Shown one piece after another: positions 20,459-41,853 of a DNA stretch of 64,000 nucleotides (the first letter of the stretch is position 1; the number at the start of each line of letters is the position of its first letter). The position numbers and the translations under genes are program-made. The stretch comes from Candidatus Azobacteroides pseudotrichonymphae (GTDB lineage Bacteria; Bacteroidota; Bacteroidia; Bacteroidales; Azobacteroidaceae), in NCBI GenBank assembly GCA_002091395.1, contig AP017913.1, positions 488,001 through 552,000 of the forward strand, read 5' to 3'. Below the pieces are notes generated by a model. The model saw nothing but the letters and a program-made list of their open reading frames with translations, had not been told where the DNA came from and searched no databases.

Positions 20459-21241
20459 ATGAATAAGATTATTAAAAAAGAAATTCTTTCTGACAATGTA
20501 GTTAAATTAAAAATAAAAGCTCCTTTAATTGCTAAAGCAAGAAAAACTGGACAGTTTGTAATTGTAAAATTAGGAAAAAATGGAGAACGTATTCCACTTA
20601 CTATAGTAGATGCAAATGTTCGAAGTGGAACTATTACTATTATTGTTCAAGACGTAGGAAAATCATCTAAAGGAATTTGTGCTCTAAATGAAGGAGATGA
20701 AATTGATGATTTAGTTGGGCCATTAGGAAAAGCAACACATATAGCTAATTATGGAACAATTGTCTGTGCTTGTGGAGGAGTTGGAACTGCTCCAATGCTA
20801 CCAATTATAAAAGCAATGAAAAAAGTAGGAAATAAAATAATCACTATTTTAGCTGCAAAAACTAAAGATTTAATTATTTTAGAAAAAGAAATAAAAAAAT
20901 TTTCAAACAAAATAATAATTACAACTAATGATGGTTCGTATGGAATAAAAGGGCTAGTAACAGATGGGACAGAGATGGTTATAAAAGAAGAAAAGATAGA
21001 TCTATGTATAACAATTGGTCCAGCTATTATGATGAAATACGTTTCTATTTTAACAAAAAAATACAAAATTCCCACTATAGCTTCACTAAATACTATTATG
21101 ATAGATGGAACAGGGATGTGTGGAGCTTGTCGCGTATCTGTCGAAGGTGAAAATAAATTTGTATGTGTAGATGGTCCTGAGTTCGACGCTCACAAAGTTA
21201 ATTTTGATGAAATGATAATAAGATTAAATGCTTACAAATAA
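20459..21241 (+). CDS. NfnA/SudB-like ferredoxin:NAD(P) reductase subunit (FAD, [2Fe-2S])
   Basis: Small subunit of the NfnAB-type transhydrogenase (also called sulfide dehydrogenase beta), which with the next gene couples NADH, NADP and ferredoxin by flavin-based electron bifurcation. The 260-residue protein has an FAD-binding domain with RIPLTIVD (45-51), an NAD-binding domain with CGGVGTAPMLP (105-115), and the [2Fe-2S] ligands Asp216, Cys221, Cys224 and Cys236, the three-Cys-plus-Asp pattern of NfnA. The family also includes PyrK-like and FlxA-like subunits. It lies 24 bases before its partner. The family is certain; the physiological direction is unknown. Confidence 0.9.
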   Translation: MNKIIKKEILSDNVVKLKIKAPLIAKARKTGQFVIVKLGKNGERIPLTIVDANVRSGTITIIVQDVGKSSKGICALNEGDEIDDLVGPLGKATHIANYGTIVCACGGVGTAPMLPIIKAMKKVGNKIITILAAKTKDLIILEKEIKKFSNKIIITTNDGSYGIKGLVTDGTEMVIKEEKIDLCITIGPAIMMKYVSILTKKYKIPTIASLNTIMIDGTGMCGACRVSVEGENKFVCVDGPEFDAHKVNFDEMIIRLNAYK

Positions 21242-21265
21242 TAAATATACAATTATATAGCATTA

Positions 21266-22735
21266 ATGATAAAAAAAAAATATTTAAAATTTCAACAAGA
21301 CGAATCTTGGAGAGATGACTTACGTAAAAGTATGAAAAACCAAGATCGGATTAGGATACCGCGTGTAAAAATGAAAGAACTGGACCCAAACTATAGAGTT
21401 CATAATCACAGTGAAGTAAATTTAGGACTAACATTAGAACAAGCATTATTAGAATCTAAACGCTGTTTAGATTGTAATAATCCACAATGCATCACAGGAT
21501 GTCCTATAAAAATTAATATTCCAAAATTTATTAAAAATATCGAACGAAATAATATATTAGAAGCAGCTAAGATATTGAAACAAACATCTGCATTACCTGC
21601 AGTTTGCGGAAGAGTTTGCCCTCAGGAAAAACAATGTGAAAGTAAGTGTATTCATCTAAAAATCAAAAATGATCCTGTAGCTATTGGTTATTTAGAACGA
21701 TTTGCTGCAGACTTTGAACGAGAAAACAATTCAATATCAATTCCAAAAATAAATAAAAATAAAAAAATTAAAATTGCTGTAATTGGTTCAGGACCTGCTG
21801 GATTGTCTTTTGCAGGAAATATGGCTAAATTAGGGTACAAAATAACCGTTTTTGAAGCTTTACATGAAATTGGCGGAGTGTTAAAATACGGAATTCCAGA
21901 ATTTCGATTGCCTAATTATGTTATAGATGCAGAAATTGATGTATTGAAAAAGAATGGGATTAAATTTATTAAAAATATAATTATAGGCAAAACTGTTTCA
22001 TACCAAGATTTACATAATGAAGGATATAAAGGAATCTTCGTTGCAGTAGGTGCTGGAGCCCCTAATTTTATGAACATTCCTGGGGAAAATCTTGCTGGAA
22101 TTTTATCTTCAAATGAATATTTAACTCGCGTTAATTTAATGGGAGCTAGCAAAAAAGGAAGTGATACTCCTGTTTTTTTAGTGAAAAAAGTAGCGGTTAT
22201 TGGCGGAGGGAACACGGCAATTGATTCTGTAAGAACAGCGCGACGCTTAGGAGCTGAAAAAGCAATGATTATCTATCGTCGTTCAAAAGAAGAAATGCCA
22301 GCTCGTACAGAAGAAATAAGACATGCTGAAGCAGAAAAAATTATTTTCATGAATCTTTACACACCAATTAAATATATTGGAGATGAAAAAGGACAAGTAA
22401 AGCAAGTATGTCTTCAGAAAATGAAATTAGGTGATCTAGATTCTTCTGGAAGAAGAAGAGCCATACCAGTTCCTAATTTAACTAAAATTTTAGATGTAGA
22501 TATGATCATTGTGGCTGTTGGAGTTTCTCCAAATCCAATGATTATTAATTCTTTTAAAGGATTGGATATAAGTAAATCTGGAACAATTCTAGTAAATCAA
22601 AATACTTTACAAACTAATTTGCTTAATATTTATGCAGGTGGTGATATAATAAGAGGTGGTTCAACTGTAATTTTAGCAATGGGAGATGGATTTAAGGCAG
22701 CAGACTCAATGCATAAAATACTTAACCAAAATTAA
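21266..22735 (+). CDS. NfnB/SudA-like NADPH oxidoreductase, GltD family
   Basis: Large subunit of the NfnAB pair: two FADs, two [4Fe-4S] clusters and an NADPH site. The 489-residue protein has N-terminal cluster ligands Cys67, 70, 75, 79 and Cys114, 118, 124, 128. A first dinucleotide fold VIGSGPAGLSFAG starts at 172 and a second, VIGGGNTAIDSVRTARRLGA, is in the middle. The family is often labelled gltA/gltD, but the immediately upstream NfnA-like gene and the absence of a large glutamate synthase subunit favour Nfn. NADPH formed could supply the many biosyntheses encoded nearby. Confidence 0.9.
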   Translation: MIKKKYLKFQQDESWRDDLRKSMKNQDRIRIPRVKMKELDPNYRVHNHSEVNLGLTLEQALLESKRCLDCNNPQCITGCPIKINIPKFIKNIERNNILEAAKILKQTSALPAVCGRVCPQEKQCESKCIHLKIKNDPVAIGYLERFAADFERENNSISIPKINKNKKIKIAVIGSGPAGLSFAGNMAKLGYKITVFEALHEIGGVLKYGIPEFRLPNYVIDAEIDVLKKNGIKFIKNIIIGKTVSYQDLHNEGYKGIFVAVGAGAPNFMNIPGENLAGILSSNEYLTRVNLMGASKKGSDTPVFLVKKVAVIGGGNTAIDSVRTARRLGAEKAMIIYRRSKEEMPARTEEIRHAEAEKIIFMNLYTPIKYIGDEKGQVKQVCLQKMKLGDLDSSGRRRAIPVPNLTKILDVDMIIVAVGVSPNPMIINSFKGLDISKSGTILVNQNTLQTNLLNIYAGGDIIRGGSTVILAMGDGFKAADSMHKILNQN

Positions 22736-35948: not shown

Positions 35949-36986
35949 TTACTCAATAACTTTGTTTTTCTGTTTGTTTATAACAATATTAGTTAATTGT
36001 TCAATTATGTTCATATCTACAGGACAATATCTCGAACAACGACCACATCCTACACACCCATTTAATTTTATTTGTTTAGGCATATAAAAAAATTTATGCA
36101 TTAACCGCTGTTTCCATCGACTGCCTTGAGTTGGACGATTATTATGCCCAGAAGCATGAAGTGTAAATGATTTGCTTGCACAACTATCCCAACAACGCAA
36201 ACGATGACCTCTACTCCCATTCATCTCATCTTGAATATCAAAACAAGTACAAACTGGACAAACAAATGCACAAATATTACAACCTATACACCGCATAGCA
36301 TACTCATCAAATATAGATGTAGAAGACAATTCATCAAAAATTCCTACTAAATCAACATTATCAAACTGAGTGGGAACAACATTTGCTAAATAATTTTCTT
36401 TTTGTAAATCAATTGTAATTTCTTCAAATAATTCTGAAACAACGGATATGACTGACGCTCCTTTAGTTGTTATAATTTCCGTAATATAATCCCCTGTAGA
36501 TGTCTTAGTAAGCACAATATCACTACCTTGCACATTGCCAGGACTTCCACCCATAGATGTACAAAAACAATAATTATCCGATTTATTGCAAGAATAAGTA
36601 ATAATTATTGTTTTCTCAACACGTTTCATAAAAAAAGAATCTTCAGGTGAAATTTTAAAAATAGATTCTAAATTCTTAAAACCTACAGCATCACAAGGGC
36701 GTATTCCAATTATTATCATATTTGGAATAGCATCAAAATTTACATTTTTGATATGAATTTTGTCTTTATTTTTAACAAAAGAAAATAATTTTTCTATGGC
36801 TGGAAAAACATATGATTTTACTGACATGTCTGGTACAATAAAATCATCTGTTAATTCTTTTGCAGATTTGATCTTTTGATAAAAAATTCTACCTTTTTCT
36901 AAAACAACACCATATACTTCTTTAAATTTTAACAATTGTTCAATAAATTCAAAATGAACCTCTTTACGTAATAATTTAATTTCCAT
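35949..36986 (-). CDS. FlxB/HydB-like 4Fe-4S dicluster electron-transfer subunit
   Basis: A 345-residue cytosolic iron-sulfur protein of the family that includes FlxB, hydrogenase subunit HydB and AsrA. The N-terminal domain has the diagnostic IIGIRPCDAVGFKNLE (92-107) and a Cys cluster YCFCTSMGG near 139-147. The C-terminal half holds two [4Fe-4S] sites, Cys233/236/239/243 and Cys311/314/317/321. It is last in the hdr operon, 5 bases after the preceding ferredoxin gene. In Flx complexes this type of subunit passes electrons between a NAD(P)H-oxidising flavoprotein and the HdrA side. That flavoprotein (FlxA) is not encoded next to it. The exact subunit name is inferred. Confidence 0.8.
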   Translation of the reverse strand: MEIKLLRKEVHFEFIEQLLKFKEVYGVVLEKGRIFYQKIKSAKELTDDFIVPDMSVKSYVFPAIEKLFSFVKNKDKIHIKNVNFDAIPNMIIIGIRPCDAVGFKNLESIFKISPEDSFFMKRVEKTIIITYSCNKSDNYCFCTSMGGSPGNVQGSDIVLTKTSTGDYITEIITTKGASVISVVSELFEEITIDLQKENYLANVVPTQFDNVDLVGIFDELSSTSIFDEYAMRCIGCNICAFVCPVCTCFDIQDEMNGSRGHRLRCWDSCASKSFTLHASGHNNRPTQGSRWKQRLMHKFFYMPKQIKLNGCVGCGRCSRYCPVDMNIIEQLTNIVINKQKNKVIE

Positions 36987-36991
36987 ATTTT

Positions 36992-37795
36992 TTATTTAAA
37001 GAAATTTTCTTTATCATCAGACTTATATACAGCCATTTCACAAATTTCATCTTTATTTAGCCCAGTTATAGAGCCATATAAATTTTTTATTTCTTCTGCC
37101 AATCGTATTGATAAAAGATGAACAGGTATGTTCTTAGGACAAGCTCTTCCACATTCACCACATTCTATACAACGCCCTGCTAAATGCATTGCCCTCATAA
37201 TATGCCACTCTGTATTGCCTAATATATTAGCAGTCACAGGAATCCACTGTGGTTGATTTAATTCTACTACACATTGTGAACAATAACAAAGTGGGCACAC
37301 CTGACGACAAGCGTAACATCTAATACAATTTTTCATCTCATTTTCCCAAAAAGTCCAACGATCATGAAGATTCATAGAGTTCAATTTGCCAAATAAAACT
37401 TCATCTGATTTATTTAAATAAAGGACTTGATTAGACAAATAATTCTCTATTTGTTCAAATGTACGAAATTCGAATAATTGTTTTTCATTAGCTGTAATTA
37501 CAATCAAATTGTCCTCACTAAGCTGTTTCTCAGAGGCTAGTCGAATAATTCCTCTTAATGTGTGAACATTAGACACAATAGCCTGTTTTCTACTGAATAG
37601 TAATACCTCTTTTTTAATAAGATAAATTGCTAGATTTTGTGTACAAAATTTATTAAAAATCAATTTTTCACATTCTTTTTCAGTTTTAGCAAAAAAAGGG
37701 CGGATTCGTTCCATACTTCCATTTGTATAACCAATAATAATTTGTACTTCTTTTGTTTTCAACAATTTAATAGCAATTTCATTCATTTTATTCAT
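36992..37795 (-). CDS. FlxC-like 4Fe-4S dicluster protein
   Basis: A 267-residue iron-sulfur protein. An N-terminal domain of about 150 residues without obvious motifs is followed by CIRCYACRQVCPLCYC (Cys157/160/163/167 plus further Cys at 170, 172, 175) and CIECGECGRACP (Cys209/212/215/219), giving two [4Fe-4S] clusters. Position between the MvhD-like and FlxB-like genes fits FlxC in Flx-Hdr clusters known from sulfate reducers. An electron-carrying role between these subunits is inferred. ATGs at 37795 and 37786 are both possible; the mvhD stop is 7 bases upstream of the first. Confidence 0.75.
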   Translation of the reverse strand: MNKMNEIAIKLLKTKEVQIIIGYTNGSMERIRPFFAKTEKECEKLIFNKFCTQNLAIYLIKKEVLLFSRKQAIVSNVHTLRGIIRLASEKQLSEDNLIVITANEKQLFEFRTFEQIENYLSNQVLYLNKSDEVLFGKLNSMNLHDRWTFWENEMKNCIRCYACRQVCPLCYCSQCVVELNQPQWIPVTANILGNTEWHIMRAMHLAGRCIECGECGRACPKNIPVHLLSIRLAEEIKNLYGSITGLNKDEICEMAVYKSDDKENFFK

Positions 37796-37801
37796 AAACT
37801 A

Positions 37802-38248
37802 TTAATCCTCCTCCCAAATTTCATTAGAAATTTTTTTATATGCTACATAAGGACCTAATTCTTTAATTTTATCAGTTGTTTTATTAACAACATTAACCCA
37901 TTTATCACTCTCAGCGGCAGAAATCCAAGTAAAAATTATACGTTCAACATCAATTCCTAAAAAATCAAGAAGTGTACGAAAAATTATCCAACGTCGACGT
38001 GCATGAAAATTACCAGATGTATAATGACAATCATTTGGATGACATCCGGAAACAATAACCCCGTCTGCTCCATTAGAAAAAGCTTTCAATAAAAACATAA
38101 AATCAATTCTACCAGTACAAGGATAACGAATTATTTCTACATTATGAGAATATTTGATGCGATTTGTTCCTGCAAGATCCGCTCCAGCATATGTACACCA
38201 ATTGCAAACAAATGCTAATATTTTTGGTTCAAAATCGTTATTAACCAT
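37802..38248 (-). CDS. mvhD: MvhD/FlxD-like [2Fe-2S] subunit (hydrogenase iron-sulfur subunit family)
   Basis: Small adaptor that carries electrons to HdrA. It has the conserved Cys pattern FVCNWCTYAGADLAG, RYPCTGRID and GCHPNDCHY (two, one and two Cys), characteristic of MvhD/FlxD. The frame is open to a TTG at 38266 and contains ATGs at 38263 and 38248. I chose 38248 because MVNNDFEPKILAF puts the first Cys pair at the usual distance. It directly follows hdrA and precedes two ferredoxin-like subunits. The usual NiFe-hydrogenase partners MvhA and MvhG are not here. Confidence 0.92.
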   Translation of the reverse strand: MVNNDFEPKILAFVCNWCTYAGADLAGTNRIKYSHNVEIIRYPCTGRIDFMFLLKAFSNGADGVIVSGCHPNDCHYTSGNFHARRRWIIFRTLLDFLGIDVERIIFTWISAAESDKWVNVVNKTTDKIKELGPYVAYKKISNEIWEED

Positions 38249-38268
38249 AGTATATAAAAACATCAAAA

Positions 38269-40266
38269 CTAATTCAATAAAGCTATCACTTCTTCATAAA
38301 TCTGTTTGTTAGAATACCCTTCCAAATCAATAGATTTAGATTTGCAAAATGCTACACATGTTCCACACCCCTGACAAAGAGTAGAATTAATATGAGCAAT
38401 ACTCTTTATTACATATCCATTGTCATCTTTTATTTCTTCTTTACTTATTGCTTTGTACGGACATATCCCTATACACAACTCACATCCCATACAAGTTGAA
38501 AATAAAGGAGGAGGCATTTTATTGATTTTAGCTACTATTGGTTCACGTACCAATTCATCACTAGAAAACAAACATAAGACTTTAGCTGCAGCACCAGAAG
38601 CAGATACTACTGACTCAGGAATGTCTTTTGGAAACTGACAAGATCCAGCAAGGAAAATTCCAGCAGTATTAGTTTCTACAGGTTTCAATTTCGGATGTGC
38701 TTCTGTAAAAAACCCATATATATCATAAGGAATATGAAGTTTTTGAGCTAAAATTTCTGAATATTTACACGATACAGCTGCTGTAGCCAATACAACTAAA
38801 TCAGCTAGTATTTCAATTGGCTTACCATTTAATAATGTATCAACACCTCTAACAATTAATTTTTCATTTTTTAACAGAATATTAGAAACTCGTCCACGAA
38901 CATATTTAATCCCATATTCCTCAACAGCTCTTCTAGTAAATTCTTCATAATTTTTCCCAGCTGCTCGAATATCCATGTAAAATATATAAGAAATCCCTTC
39001 AGGAACTTTATTTTTATAAAGCATTGCATGTTTTACAGTATACATACAACATATTTTAGAACAATACGAAATACCTTTTGCACAATCACGAGAACCTGCA
39101 CATGAAATAAAAACAACTTTTTTTGGAACTTTACAATCTGACGGACGACGAATTTCACCAATAGTCGGTCCTGATGCTGAAGCCAATCGTTCGAATTGCA
39201 TCCCAGTGATAATATCTTTACACTTACCGTATCCATACTCAGGGAAAAAATCAACATTTTTTATATCAAACCCTGTTGATAATATGATCGCTCCTGCTTT
39301 TATTTCAATAATCTCATCTATTTGTTCAAAATCAATTGCTCCAGTAGGACAAAATTTTTGACAAATTTTACATTTGCCTTTTTGAAAAAAAATACAATTA
39401 TTACGATCTATAACTGGATTATTAGGAATAGCTTGTGGAAAAGGAACATAAATAGCTGGTCTATATGACAACCCTTGATTGAATTCACTTAAGTTTTTTT
39501 TCATTGGACATTTTGTATAACAAAGTCCACATGTAGTACATTTTTTTTCATCTATACTTTTAGCTTTTTTACGCACTTGTACACTGAAATTTCCAATAAA
39601 CCCATCTACACTTTCTATTTCAGAATATGTATAAAGCATAATATTTGGATGTTGCGCAACTTCTACCATGCGTGGAGTAAGAATACATTGAGAACAATCT
39701 AGCGTAGGAAAAGTTTCCGACAGTTGAGCCATACGGCCACCTATAGATGGTTCTCGTTCTATCAAAATAACTTTATAGCCACCATTAGCAATATCAATTG
39801 ATGACTGTATCCCCGCAATACCTCCACCAATAACAATTGCAATTTTATTTATCGGAACTTTGTAAGGATACAAAGGCAAATTATTTTTTACTTTTTCTAT
39901 TCGAGCACGTACTAAATTAAAAGCTTTTTGAGTTGCAAATTCTACTTTCTCATGTACCCAAGAACAATGTTCACGAACATTTGCTATCTCACATAAATAA
40001 GGATTTAATCCGATTTCGGCACAAACTTTACGAAAAGTATATTCATGCATACGTGGAGAACACGCTGCAATAACAACTCCAGTAAGACCATGCTTTTTGA
40101 CTGCTTCTTTTATTTTATTTTGTCCAGGATCGGAACACATATACTTATAGTCAACACTAAAAACAACACCAGATAATTTAGAAGCTCGCATCGCTACTTT
40201 TTCACAATCAACTATAGAAGCAATATTTTCTCCACAATGACACACAAACACACCGATTTTCGACAT
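38269..40266 (-). CDS. hdrA: Heterodisulfide reductase subunit A-like bifurcating flavoprotein
   Basis: Central FAD protein of Hdr complexes, 665 residues, where electrons are split between a disulfide branch (HdrBC) and ferredoxin. The N-terminal cluster domain has Cys44, 69, 82, 92, 101. The FAD fold has VIGGGIAGIQSS from residue 145 and the IEREPSIGGRMAQL segment, then LDCSQCILTP. Inserted ferredoxin motifs lie at Cys243/246/249/253 and 291/299/302/306. The C-terminal ferredoxin domain has Cys592/595/598/602 and 631/634/637/641. All expected cluster ligands are present, so the gene looks functional. It is separated from hdrB by 193 bases with a promoter candidate, and runs into mvhD. Confidence 0.95.
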   Translation of the reverse strand: MSKIGVFVCHCGENIASIVDCEKVAMRASKLSGVVFSVDYKYMCSDPGQNKIKEAVKKHGLTGVVIAACSPRMHEYTFRKVCAEIGLNPYLCEIANVREHCSWVHEKVEFATQKAFNLVRARIEKVKNNLPLYPYKVPINKIAIVIGGGIAGIQSSIDIANGGYKVILIEREPSIGGRMAQLSETFPTLDCSQCILTPRMVEVAQHPNIMLYTYSEIESVDGFIGNFSVQVRKKAKSIDEKKCTTCGLCYTKCPMKKNLSEFNQGLSYRPAIYVPFPQAIPNNPVIDRNNCIFFQKGKCKICQKFCPTGAIDFEQIDEIIEIKAGAIILSTGFDIKNVDFFPEYGYGKCKDIITGMQFERLASASGPTIGEIRRPSDCKVPKKVVFISCAGSRDCAKGISYCSKICCMYTVKHAMLYKNKVPEGISYIFYMDIRAAGKNYEEFTRRAVEEYGIKYVRGRVSNILLKNEKLIVRGVDTLLNGKPIEILADLVVLATAAVSCKYSEILAQKLHIPYDIYGFFTEAHPKLKPVETNTAGIFLAGSCQFPKDIPESVVSASGAAAKVLCLFSSDELVREPIVAKINKMPPPLFSTCMGCELCIGICPYKAISKEEIKDDNGYVIKSIAHINSTLCQGCGTCVAFCKSKSIDLEGYSNKQIYEEVIALLN

Positions 40267-40459
40267 ACTATATCAAATATATTTCTTTGTTTTTTCAACC
40301 ACAATTATTTGTTTTTAAATTCGAATATTTGTAATAATTTTCAATTAACTTTCATTAATATAAACTAAACACGCAAACTACAATTAGCATTTATTATTTT
40401 TCATCATAAACAAATATACTTTTAGTTACAAATAACAAACAACAAAATTATTTAAATAT
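40267..40459. other. Gap inside the hdr cluster between hdrB and hdrA
   Basis: This 193-base AT-rich gap breaks an otherwise tight minus-strand run. It contains the candidate hdrA promoter. No ORF or structured RNA was recognised in it. Confidence 0.5.
40274..40305 (-). promoter_or_regulatory. Candidate promoter directly before hdrA
   Basis: On the minus strand, ATTG (40302-40305) lies 20 bases upstream of TATATTTG (40274-40281), the same arrangement as at ftsH. The predicted RNA start, near 40267, coincides with the hdrA ATG at 40266, so the message would be leaderless or nearly so. A chance match in AT-rich DNA is possible. Confidence 0.4.
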
Positions 40460-41308
40460 TTAAATAAATGTTGGTTTTACAAACAACTTTTTAAACCCTA
40501 AATCCTTCTTTTTTATTCCAATTGCCAACCCAATCGCTTGGGTAATATAAATTACAGGAATATTTGTTTTTTTGTGTAAATAATTATTAATACATGAACG
40601 ACGTGTATCCAAATTTGACTGGCACATTGGACACGCGACAATAATTGCTTCTGCTCCTTTATTAATTGCATCTTTTATAATTTCCCCACATAATTTAACA
40701 ACAATATCGGTACGAGAAACTGAAAATCCTCCACCACAACATTCTGTTTTATATGCCCAATCAATTGGTAACGCTCCTATTTTTTTCATTAAATTATCCA
40801 TTGATTGTGGATCTTCTAAACGATCAAAATTTAAAATTTTATGTGGACGTACTAATAAACATCCATAATAACAAACTACAGGATATTTAAAAAAATAAAT
40901 TATTTTTTCTTTTATTTTTTCAAAAATATATTTTTCTATGTACTGAATTATATTTAATATACTAATATTATTATCAATACAAATTTGAAATGTCTCAAAT
41001 AACTGATTTCTCAAAAATTTATTAATTTTAAGTTGATGTTGTGCAATACATAATCTATTATAACACGCCGCACAAGGAGCAACAATCTCTGTTAATTTTT
41101 GTTGTTTTGCCAAAGTTAATATTCTCGCAGGCAAAGTGACAGAGAGTTTATTGTTAATATTATGAACAGTACTTGCTCCACAACAATTCCAATCTTCAAT
41201 TTCAACTAAATTAATACCAACCATTTTTGACAAAGTAAATATAGATTGAGCATATTCAGAAGAAGTTCCTTTTAAAGAACAACCTGGAAAAAATCCTATT
41301 TGAGTCAT
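40460..41308 (-). CDS. hdrB: Heterodisulfide reductase subunit B-like (two CCG domains)
   Basis: Disulfide-reducing subunit, 282 residues. Both CCG motifs are intact: the first with Cys10, Cys42-Cys43, Cys79 and Cys82, the second with about Cys146/150, Cys190-Cys191, Cys226 and Cys229. In HdrB of methanogens each motif binds a noncubane [4Fe-4S] cluster that reduces CoM-S-S-CoB; this organism is not expected to have those cofactors, so the natural disulfide or thiol-like substrate is unknown. It overlaps hdrC by 4 bases. Confidence 0.93.
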   Translation of the reverse strand: MTQIGFFPGCSLKGTSSEYAQSIFTLSKMVGINLVEIEDWNCCGASTVHNINNKLSVTLPARILTLAKQQKLTEIVAPCAACYNRLCIAQHQLKINKFLRNQLFETFQICIDNNISILNIIQYIEKYIFEKIKEKIIYFFKYPVVCYYGCLLVRPHKILNFDRLEDPQSMDNLMKKIGALPIDWAYKTECCGGGFSVSRTDIVVKLCGEIIKDAINKGAEAIIVACPMCQSNLDTRRSCINNYLHKKTNIPVIYITQAIGLAIGIKKKDLGFKKLFVKPTFI

Positions 41309-41853
41309 TTCTTATATTTTTTAAAAAAAAATGATAAATGTTTTCTATTTTTTATTATATTGGGAAATAAAGGTAATTTACCCTTTATAAACATATAAAA
41401 GGCAAGACTTAAATCTTGGAAAAAATTAAATGTTCTTAATTTATACTCTACGGCTACTCCTATTTCATAAATTCGGCCTGTATATTTAATAGAATTTAAA
41501 AATGAATAATGAAAAGGAATAATATTTCGTTCAGACTTTTTATTCTGCATTTTTTTTTCTAAAGAACATTGTCGTAAATAATCTATTATTTCAGGAATAT
41601 CAATTTCCATTGGACAACGTGATAAACATATTCCACATGATATACATACCCATATCGTCTGTGACCTAAGGATTTGTTTGTCTATAATTTCTTCTCCTAT
41701 TTGAATCATTCGCATCATAACACTAGAAGTAAAATCCATATTGCCAGACACTGGACACCCAGCAGAGCACTTGCCACATTGATAACACTTGTCAACATTT
41801 ATTCCTATACTATTAGAAACTTTAACTCTTAATATATTTTTTTTATCTACCAT
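41305..41853 (-). CDS. hdrC: Heterodisulfide reductase subunit C-like ferredoxin
   Basis: A 182-residue iron-sulfur protein carrying electrons from HdrA to HdrB. Two [4Fe-4S] motifs: CYQCGKCSAGCP (Cys23/26/29/33) and CISCGICLSRCP (Cys70/73/76/80). The C-terminal half is helical and basic, without membrane segments, so the complex is predicted to be cytosolic. It is first of the hdr genes, only 24 bases below pit, and might be transcribed with the phosphate-transport genes. Confidence 0.92.
   Translation of the reverse strand: MVDKKNILRVKVSNSIGINVDKCYQCGKCSAGCPVSGNMDFTSSVMMRMIQIGEEIIDKQILRSQTIWVCISCGICLSRCPMEIDIPEIIDYLRQCSLEKKMQNKKSERNIIPFHYSFLNSIKYTGRIYEIGVAVEYKLRTFNFFQDLSLAFYMFIKGKLPLFPNIIKNRKHLSFFFKKYKK

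Follow-up and report, generated by a model that had tools for sequence, protein, structure and literature searches.

In Bilophila and Desulfovibrio, hdrCBA-flxDCBA encodes an NADH dehydrogenase/bifurcating complex (PMC12125255), for which DsrC has been postulated as the disulfide acceptor in Desulfovibrio (PMC5296606). Flavin-based bifurcation by HdrA has been tied to residues K409 and E356 of the Methanothermococcus thermolithotrophicus protein (PMC12054007). Here we describe a gene set of this kind in Candidatus Azobacteroides pseudotrichonymphae ProJPt-1. This bacterium lives as a symbiont inside cells of Pseudotrichonympha, a gut protist of the termite Prorhinotermes japonicus; its chromosome 1 measures 774,998 bp and its seven replicons sum to 1,016,909 bp (PMC5478533). 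The window, i.e., the whole stretch of DNA analysed, comprises 64,000 nucleotides (positions 488001-552000 of chromosome 1, contig C1 of genome G000), and the sister genome CFP2 (phylotype CfPt1-2, relative G003), with a chromosome of 1,114,206 bp (PMC5478533), was used for comparison. A literature search, which the original CFP2 genome paper lay outside, returned no Azobacteroides genome paper naming Hdr.

The hdr-flx operon and its subunits

Examination of window positions 35949-41853 showed six uninterrupted minus-strand ORFs, as a preliminary description of this DNA had reported, encoding HdrC, HdrB, HdrA, MvhD/FlxD, FlxC, and FlxB. The resulting order, hdrC-hdrB-hdrA-flxD-flxC-flxB, is the usual (not strictly defining) order of FlxABCD-HdrABC gene sets, in which flxA normally comes next. 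The hdrC gene (41305..41853, 182 aa) overlaps the start of hdrB (40460..41308, 282 aa) by 4 nt, and gaps of 2-6 nt separate the genes from hdrA (38269..40266, 665 aa) through mvhD/flxD (37802..38266, 154 aa as listed from a TTG), flxC (36992..37795, 267 aa), and flxB (35949..36986, 345 aa), all on the minus strand; the overlap and short gaps are as in an operon. Homologues suggest that flxD translation starts at codon 7, an ATG (about 38248), rather than at the listed TTG. The space between hdrB and hdrA on the same strand (40267..40459) is AT-rich, holds no ORF, and is 193 nt long in ProJPt-1 versus 433 nt in CFP2, with relatives mostly below about 110 nt; inspection by eye of the ProJPt-1 and CFP2 gaps made no conserved element evident.

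The HdrABC-FlxBCD identities assigned earlier were borne out by matches to Pfam, NCBIfam, and PDB entries. In the Pfam/NCBIfam search HdrC was recognized, HdrA matched the HdrA2 model (E 2.5e-224), and HdrB matched with two CCG domains (E 2e-20), while the PDB matches were 5odc for HdrA (E 1.5e-195) and 9sfi for HdrB (E 8e-34). MvhD/FlxD matched the FlpD family (E 1.7e-50) and carries C21, C24, C50, C75, and C80. On the HdrA2 model, which describes the HdrA2B2C2-type fusion, HdrA covers positions 1-640 and MvhD positions 644-773. FlxC is a Fer4 dicluster protein with two 4Fe-4S sites whose C-terminal half resembles the ferredoxin part of FdhB (7bkb_E), and FlxB, with a Fer4_22 domain, resembles the beta subunit of sulfhydrogenase 1 (9nez_B, E 9e-44) and AsrA.

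The cluster ligands, which had been described as complete, including both CCG motifs of HdrB and four ferredoxin-type sites in HdrA, were all found. HdrC carries two CxxCxxCxxxC motifs (C23-33 and C70-80) for two [4Fe-4S] sites, and the two CCG domains of HdrB provide the full set of non-cubane [4Fe-4S] ligands (C10/42/43/79/82 and C146 or C150/190/191/226/229). The four ferredoxin-type sites of HdrA lie at residues 243-253, 291-306, 592-602, and 631-641, the second with an insertion between its first two cysteines, and the core cysteines 389, 402, 406, and 407 are present. In an alignment of 101 homologues each canonical cluster cysteine of HdrA is kept in at least 99 sequences, and Cys 349, 378, and 395 are nearly private to this lineage. 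Within the FAD core, E359 and K412 align with E356 and K409 of the M. thermolithotrophicus protein and are invariant in the 101 homologues, and thus the bifurcating-type flavin residues on which the preliminary description had made its reading depend are in place.

A displaced flxA and the retention of the gene set

No gene for FlxA, the subunit that binds NAD(P)H and on which any case for NADH oxidation depends, lies in the window, but one is present elsewhere in the genome. A PF00175 search of the genome returned three proteins. One NAD_binding_1 protein (L004) adjoins a PyrD-like dihydroorotate dehydrogenase and was therefore rejected as PyrK, and a second (L005, window 20459-21241) adjoins a GltD-type protein and was likewise rejected, as NfnA. 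The third is FlxA, an intact 278-aa protein with Pfam NAD_binding_1 and DHODB Fe-S domains, encoded 109 kb from the operon (G000:C1:639041-639877). It is 57-73% identical to the products of the genes that immediately follow flxB in many operons of Bacteroidales, including 72% to its counterpart in locus L006, where it is the seventh operon gene. Its closest PDB match is the gamma subunit of sulfhydrogenase 1 (9nez_C, E 4e-58), from whose homology FlxA would be expected to bind flavin; since the closest matches of FlxA and FlxB are the gamma and beta subunits of the same sulfhydrogenase, the two appear to form a single NAD(P)H module. The set in the window is thus incomplete, a point that the preliminary description did not make, the missing subunit being supplied from a distance. 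Because flxA is unlinked, its co-expression with the operon is not assured.

Among about 80 database loci with a close HdrA, mostly from Bacteroidota, hdrC-hdrB-hdrA-mvhD-flxC-flxB-flxA is the commonest arrangement, the same order as that named in Bilophila (PMC12125255). The gene set had been rated as unusual, and its being common in Bacteroidales makes it less so. The flxA gene adjoins the operon in most other loci, and closes it in the same-genus genome G017, but lies elsewhere in both ProJPt-1 and CFP2, where the same PdxA-like gene directly follows it. This shared displacement indicates that the move predates the ProJPt-1/CFP2 split; the simplest reading is that flxA moved once, before the two Azobacteroides lineages separated, and that the new position persisted despite the massive rearrangements reported between the two chromosomes (PMC5478533). 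In the HdrA tree the window sequence pairs with that of CFP2 (support 99), and the pair falls in a clade formed by its own GTDB family (support 100), a placement consistent with vertical inheritance.

Three further observations concern these neighbourhoods and lineages. The PdxA-like gene (L163:6175-7035 and L166:7511-8491) is fast-evolving (48% identity, dN/dS 0.42), and its product scores low against the PdxA family, as would a protein that is decaying or changed in function. Four Prevotellaceae MAGs (L048, L054, L077, and L079) carry a solitary intact hdrA, with no hdrB, hdrC, mvhD, or flx detectable in the available flanks; their HdrA proteins keep the E and K residues and form one clade in the tree (support 99). 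Additionally, HdrA falls into two separate lineages in a single GTDB genus, represented by L095-L102, L104, and L105 versus L088, L090, and L091. One is Dysgonomonas-like (about 68% identity to the window protein) and the other is shared with Azobacteroides (75-79%), which hints at transfer or loss of paralogues.

The departure of flxA from the operon, together with the enlarged hdrB-hdrA gap, might be taken as signs of a decaying or non-bifurcating relic on its way out. The flxA gene is nevertheless intact elsewhere in both species, and all flx-hdr ORFs are intact in both, with no frameshift in CFP2, at 60-79% protein identity. Values of dN/dS against CFP2 range from 0.12 to 0.23 for the seven flx-hdr genes, next to 0.05 for NifH, 0.11 for enolase, 0.29 for the sulfite reductase Sir, and 0.42 for the PdxA-like neighbour of flxA, all of them rough ratios as dS is near 1 in this comparison. 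As judged from these ratios the seven genes are under purifying selection, and decay is largely refuted, with very little probability left to it. The retention of an intact operon in a reduced genome, to which the preliminary description had attached importance, accordingly holds for a genome of about 1 Mb.

Redox setting and proposed electron flow

Both ProJPt-1 and CFP2 carry nifH, two glnB-like genes, nifDKENB, and a ferredoxin gene, an arrangement that has also been described for Bacteroidetes (PMC4356463). Nitrogenase and hydrogenase had both been guessed to lie outside the window; the former guess was right, and the latter was not, as genome searches of ProJPt-1 and CFP2 found neither an [FeFe] hydrogenase nor a [NiFe] hydrogenase (MvhA large subunit, PF00374). 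Rnf/Nqr was also not found in the searches of the two genomes, and positive controls matched in each of the hydrogenase and Rnf/Nqr searches. Hydrogenases of these two types as electron donor or sink, and Rnf/Nqr as a competing ferredoxin:NAD route, were rejected on these grounds. Three POR-family enzymes are present in both genomes, one of them being a complete PFOR with a length of about 1180 aa (1184 aa).

The window also contains, outside the operon and on the plus strand, an NfnAB-like pair (20459-22735), which is likely to be another bifurcating enzyme linking NAD(P)H and ferredoxin. It consists of nfnA-like (20459..21241, 260 aa) and nfnB-like (21266..22735, 489 aa), the latter a GltD-type subunit assigned by sequence reading. 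Flx-Hdr and NfnAB were the NAD(P)H-ferredoxin links found in these searches, which covered the POR family, [FeFe] and [NiFe] hydrogenases, and Rnf/Nqr.

We consider it likely, from gene content and sequence, that Flx-Hdr is of the same kind as the FlxABCD-HdrABC complex of Desulfovibrio, a bifurcating NADH:ferredoxin/disulfide enzyme, and that it contributes to the supply of ferredoxin, probably for nitrogenase. The products of the six operon genes and the distant flxA would form a soluble FlxABCD-HdrABC complex in which FlxA, with its FAD and 2Fe-2S cluster, would take hydride from NADH, and FlxB, FlxC, and FlxD/MvhD would relay the electrons to the flavin of HdrA. At this flavin each electron pair would be split, one electron passing via the ferredoxin-type clusters of HdrA to ferredoxin or flavodoxin, and the other via HdrC to HdrB, whose two non-cubane clusters would reduce a disulfide. 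The likely benefit would be that glycolytic NADH is reoxidised and extra reduced ferredoxin gained, mainly for nitrogenase, in the cell of a nitrogen-fixing endosymbiont that has to do without Rnf, Nqr, and hydrogenases. We infer that the complex assembles, that it runs in this direction, and that a disulfide acceptor exists; nitrogenase as consumer can likewise only be inferred, because PFOR and NfnAB already join ferredoxin to other redox pools.

The same inventory bears on the opposite direction of flow, in which the complex would work mainly by confurcation, with ferredoxin from pyruvate oxidation and a dithiol together reducing NAD+ and ferredoxin thereby being disposed of. The three POR-family enzymes, a full PFOR among them, would supply ferredoxin that neither Rnf nor hydrogenase drains, and a lesser reverse role is reported for Desulfovibrio during fermentation (PMC12125255), but with nitrogenase as a strong ferredoxin sink and no dithiol donor pathway known in Azobacteroides we regard confurcation as an unlikely main mode.

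For the bifurcating direction preferred here, the acceptor of HdrB cannot be the one postulated in Desulfovibrio. DsrC (PF04358) was absent from the ProJPt-1 genome and from all 47 relatives in its family, which excludes it as acceptor in Azobacteroides, and among 100 relatives it was found in none of the 20 genomes with a close HdrA.

ProJPt-1 also encodes a 781-aa sulfite reductase that carries a TusA domain fused at its C-terminus (L162:6461-8806; G000:C1, about 68.5-70.8 kb), whose gene adjoins that of a ThiF-family protein. Proteins of similar length occur in CFP2 and several same-genus relatives, the TusA domain being shown in ProJPt-1. If this TusA domain were the disulfide or persulfide partner of HdrB, the complex would serve assimilatory sulfite reduction. 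The retention of the 781-786 aa enzyme in both Azobacteroides genomes would fit such a role, as would the pairing of Sir with HdrABC-FlxABCD proposed for a Deferribacterota termite symbiont (PMC12887300). Yet by dN/dS Sir has been conserved less strongly than the Hdr genes, and HdrA and Sir were not significantly linked, either over 100 relatives (6/20 vs 11/80, p = 0.10) or within the family (5/16 vs 8/32, p = 0.74), although many of the relatives' genomes are incomplete and the co-occurrence tests are weaker for it in both directions. The fused enzyme was rejected as a general partner on this basis, and a dedicated role in sulfite reduction seems quite improbable to us.

We tentatively propose, as a possibility that goes beyond the bifurcating assignment itself, that HdrB in Azobacteroides, and perhaps in Bacteroidales generally, may pass electrons to a disulfide or persulfide acceptor other than DsrC or CoM-S-S-CoB (a small-molecule thiol, for instance, or a TusA domain), and that in this symbiont the complex might couple the reoxidation of NADH to N2 fixation as a major additional supplier of low-potential electrons to nitrogenase.

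Comparison with known Flx-Hdr and Hdr systems

Taken together, these results show a real, intact, and conserved FlxABCD-HdrABC system with one gene displaced, of a kind that, like the genome itself, has already been published. What makes it interesting is not the genes as such but the acceptor question and their occurrence in a reduced diazotroph that has neither Rnf nor either of the two main hydrogenase types. A genome of about 1 Mb keeps an NADH-driven bifurcating set under selection in the absence of Rnf, Nqr, and those hydrogenases, and to our knowledge the source of nitrogenase-strength electrons in endosymbiotic diazotrophs is not settled. Furthermore, the absence of DsrC means that Flx-Hdr complexes cannot all use the acceptor put forward on the basis of sulfate reducers, and this makes the HdrB substrate in Bacteroidales a testable question.

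Like ProJPt-1, CFP2 has the six-gene operon with the same neighbours (Pit, PhoU-like, UxaC, and enolase) and flxA displaced beside the same PdxA-like gene; it differs by its 60-79% protein identity and its larger hdrB-hdrA gap (433 nt). The hdrCBA-mvhD-flxCBA loci of other Bacteroidales (Dysgonamonadaceae Fux382_bin49, Bacteroides oleiciplenus, and Dysgonomonas) are orthologous, with HdrA 68-77% identical and genes in the same order, but flxA is adjacent in most of them and their genomes are larger. With the FlxABCD-HdrABC systems of Desulfovibrio/Nitratidesulfovibrio vulgaris and Bilophila wadsworthia (hdrCBA-flxDCBA) the Azobacteroides set shares all seven subunits, six of them in the same order, and the same proposed electron path from NADH; it differs in its unlinked flxA, in the lack of DsrC, and in a host that is a nitrogen-fixing symbiont rather than a sulfite-respiring bacterium. 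The HdrABC core and MvhD are also shared with the methanogen MvhADG-HdrABC complex, whereas Azobacteroides has an NAD(P)H module in place of hydrogenase subunits and CoM-S-S-CoB is not expected as its substrate. Finally, HdrA2 of the F420H2-type HdrA2B2C2 complex is fused to MvhD, while in Azobacteroides the two are encoded by separate genes.
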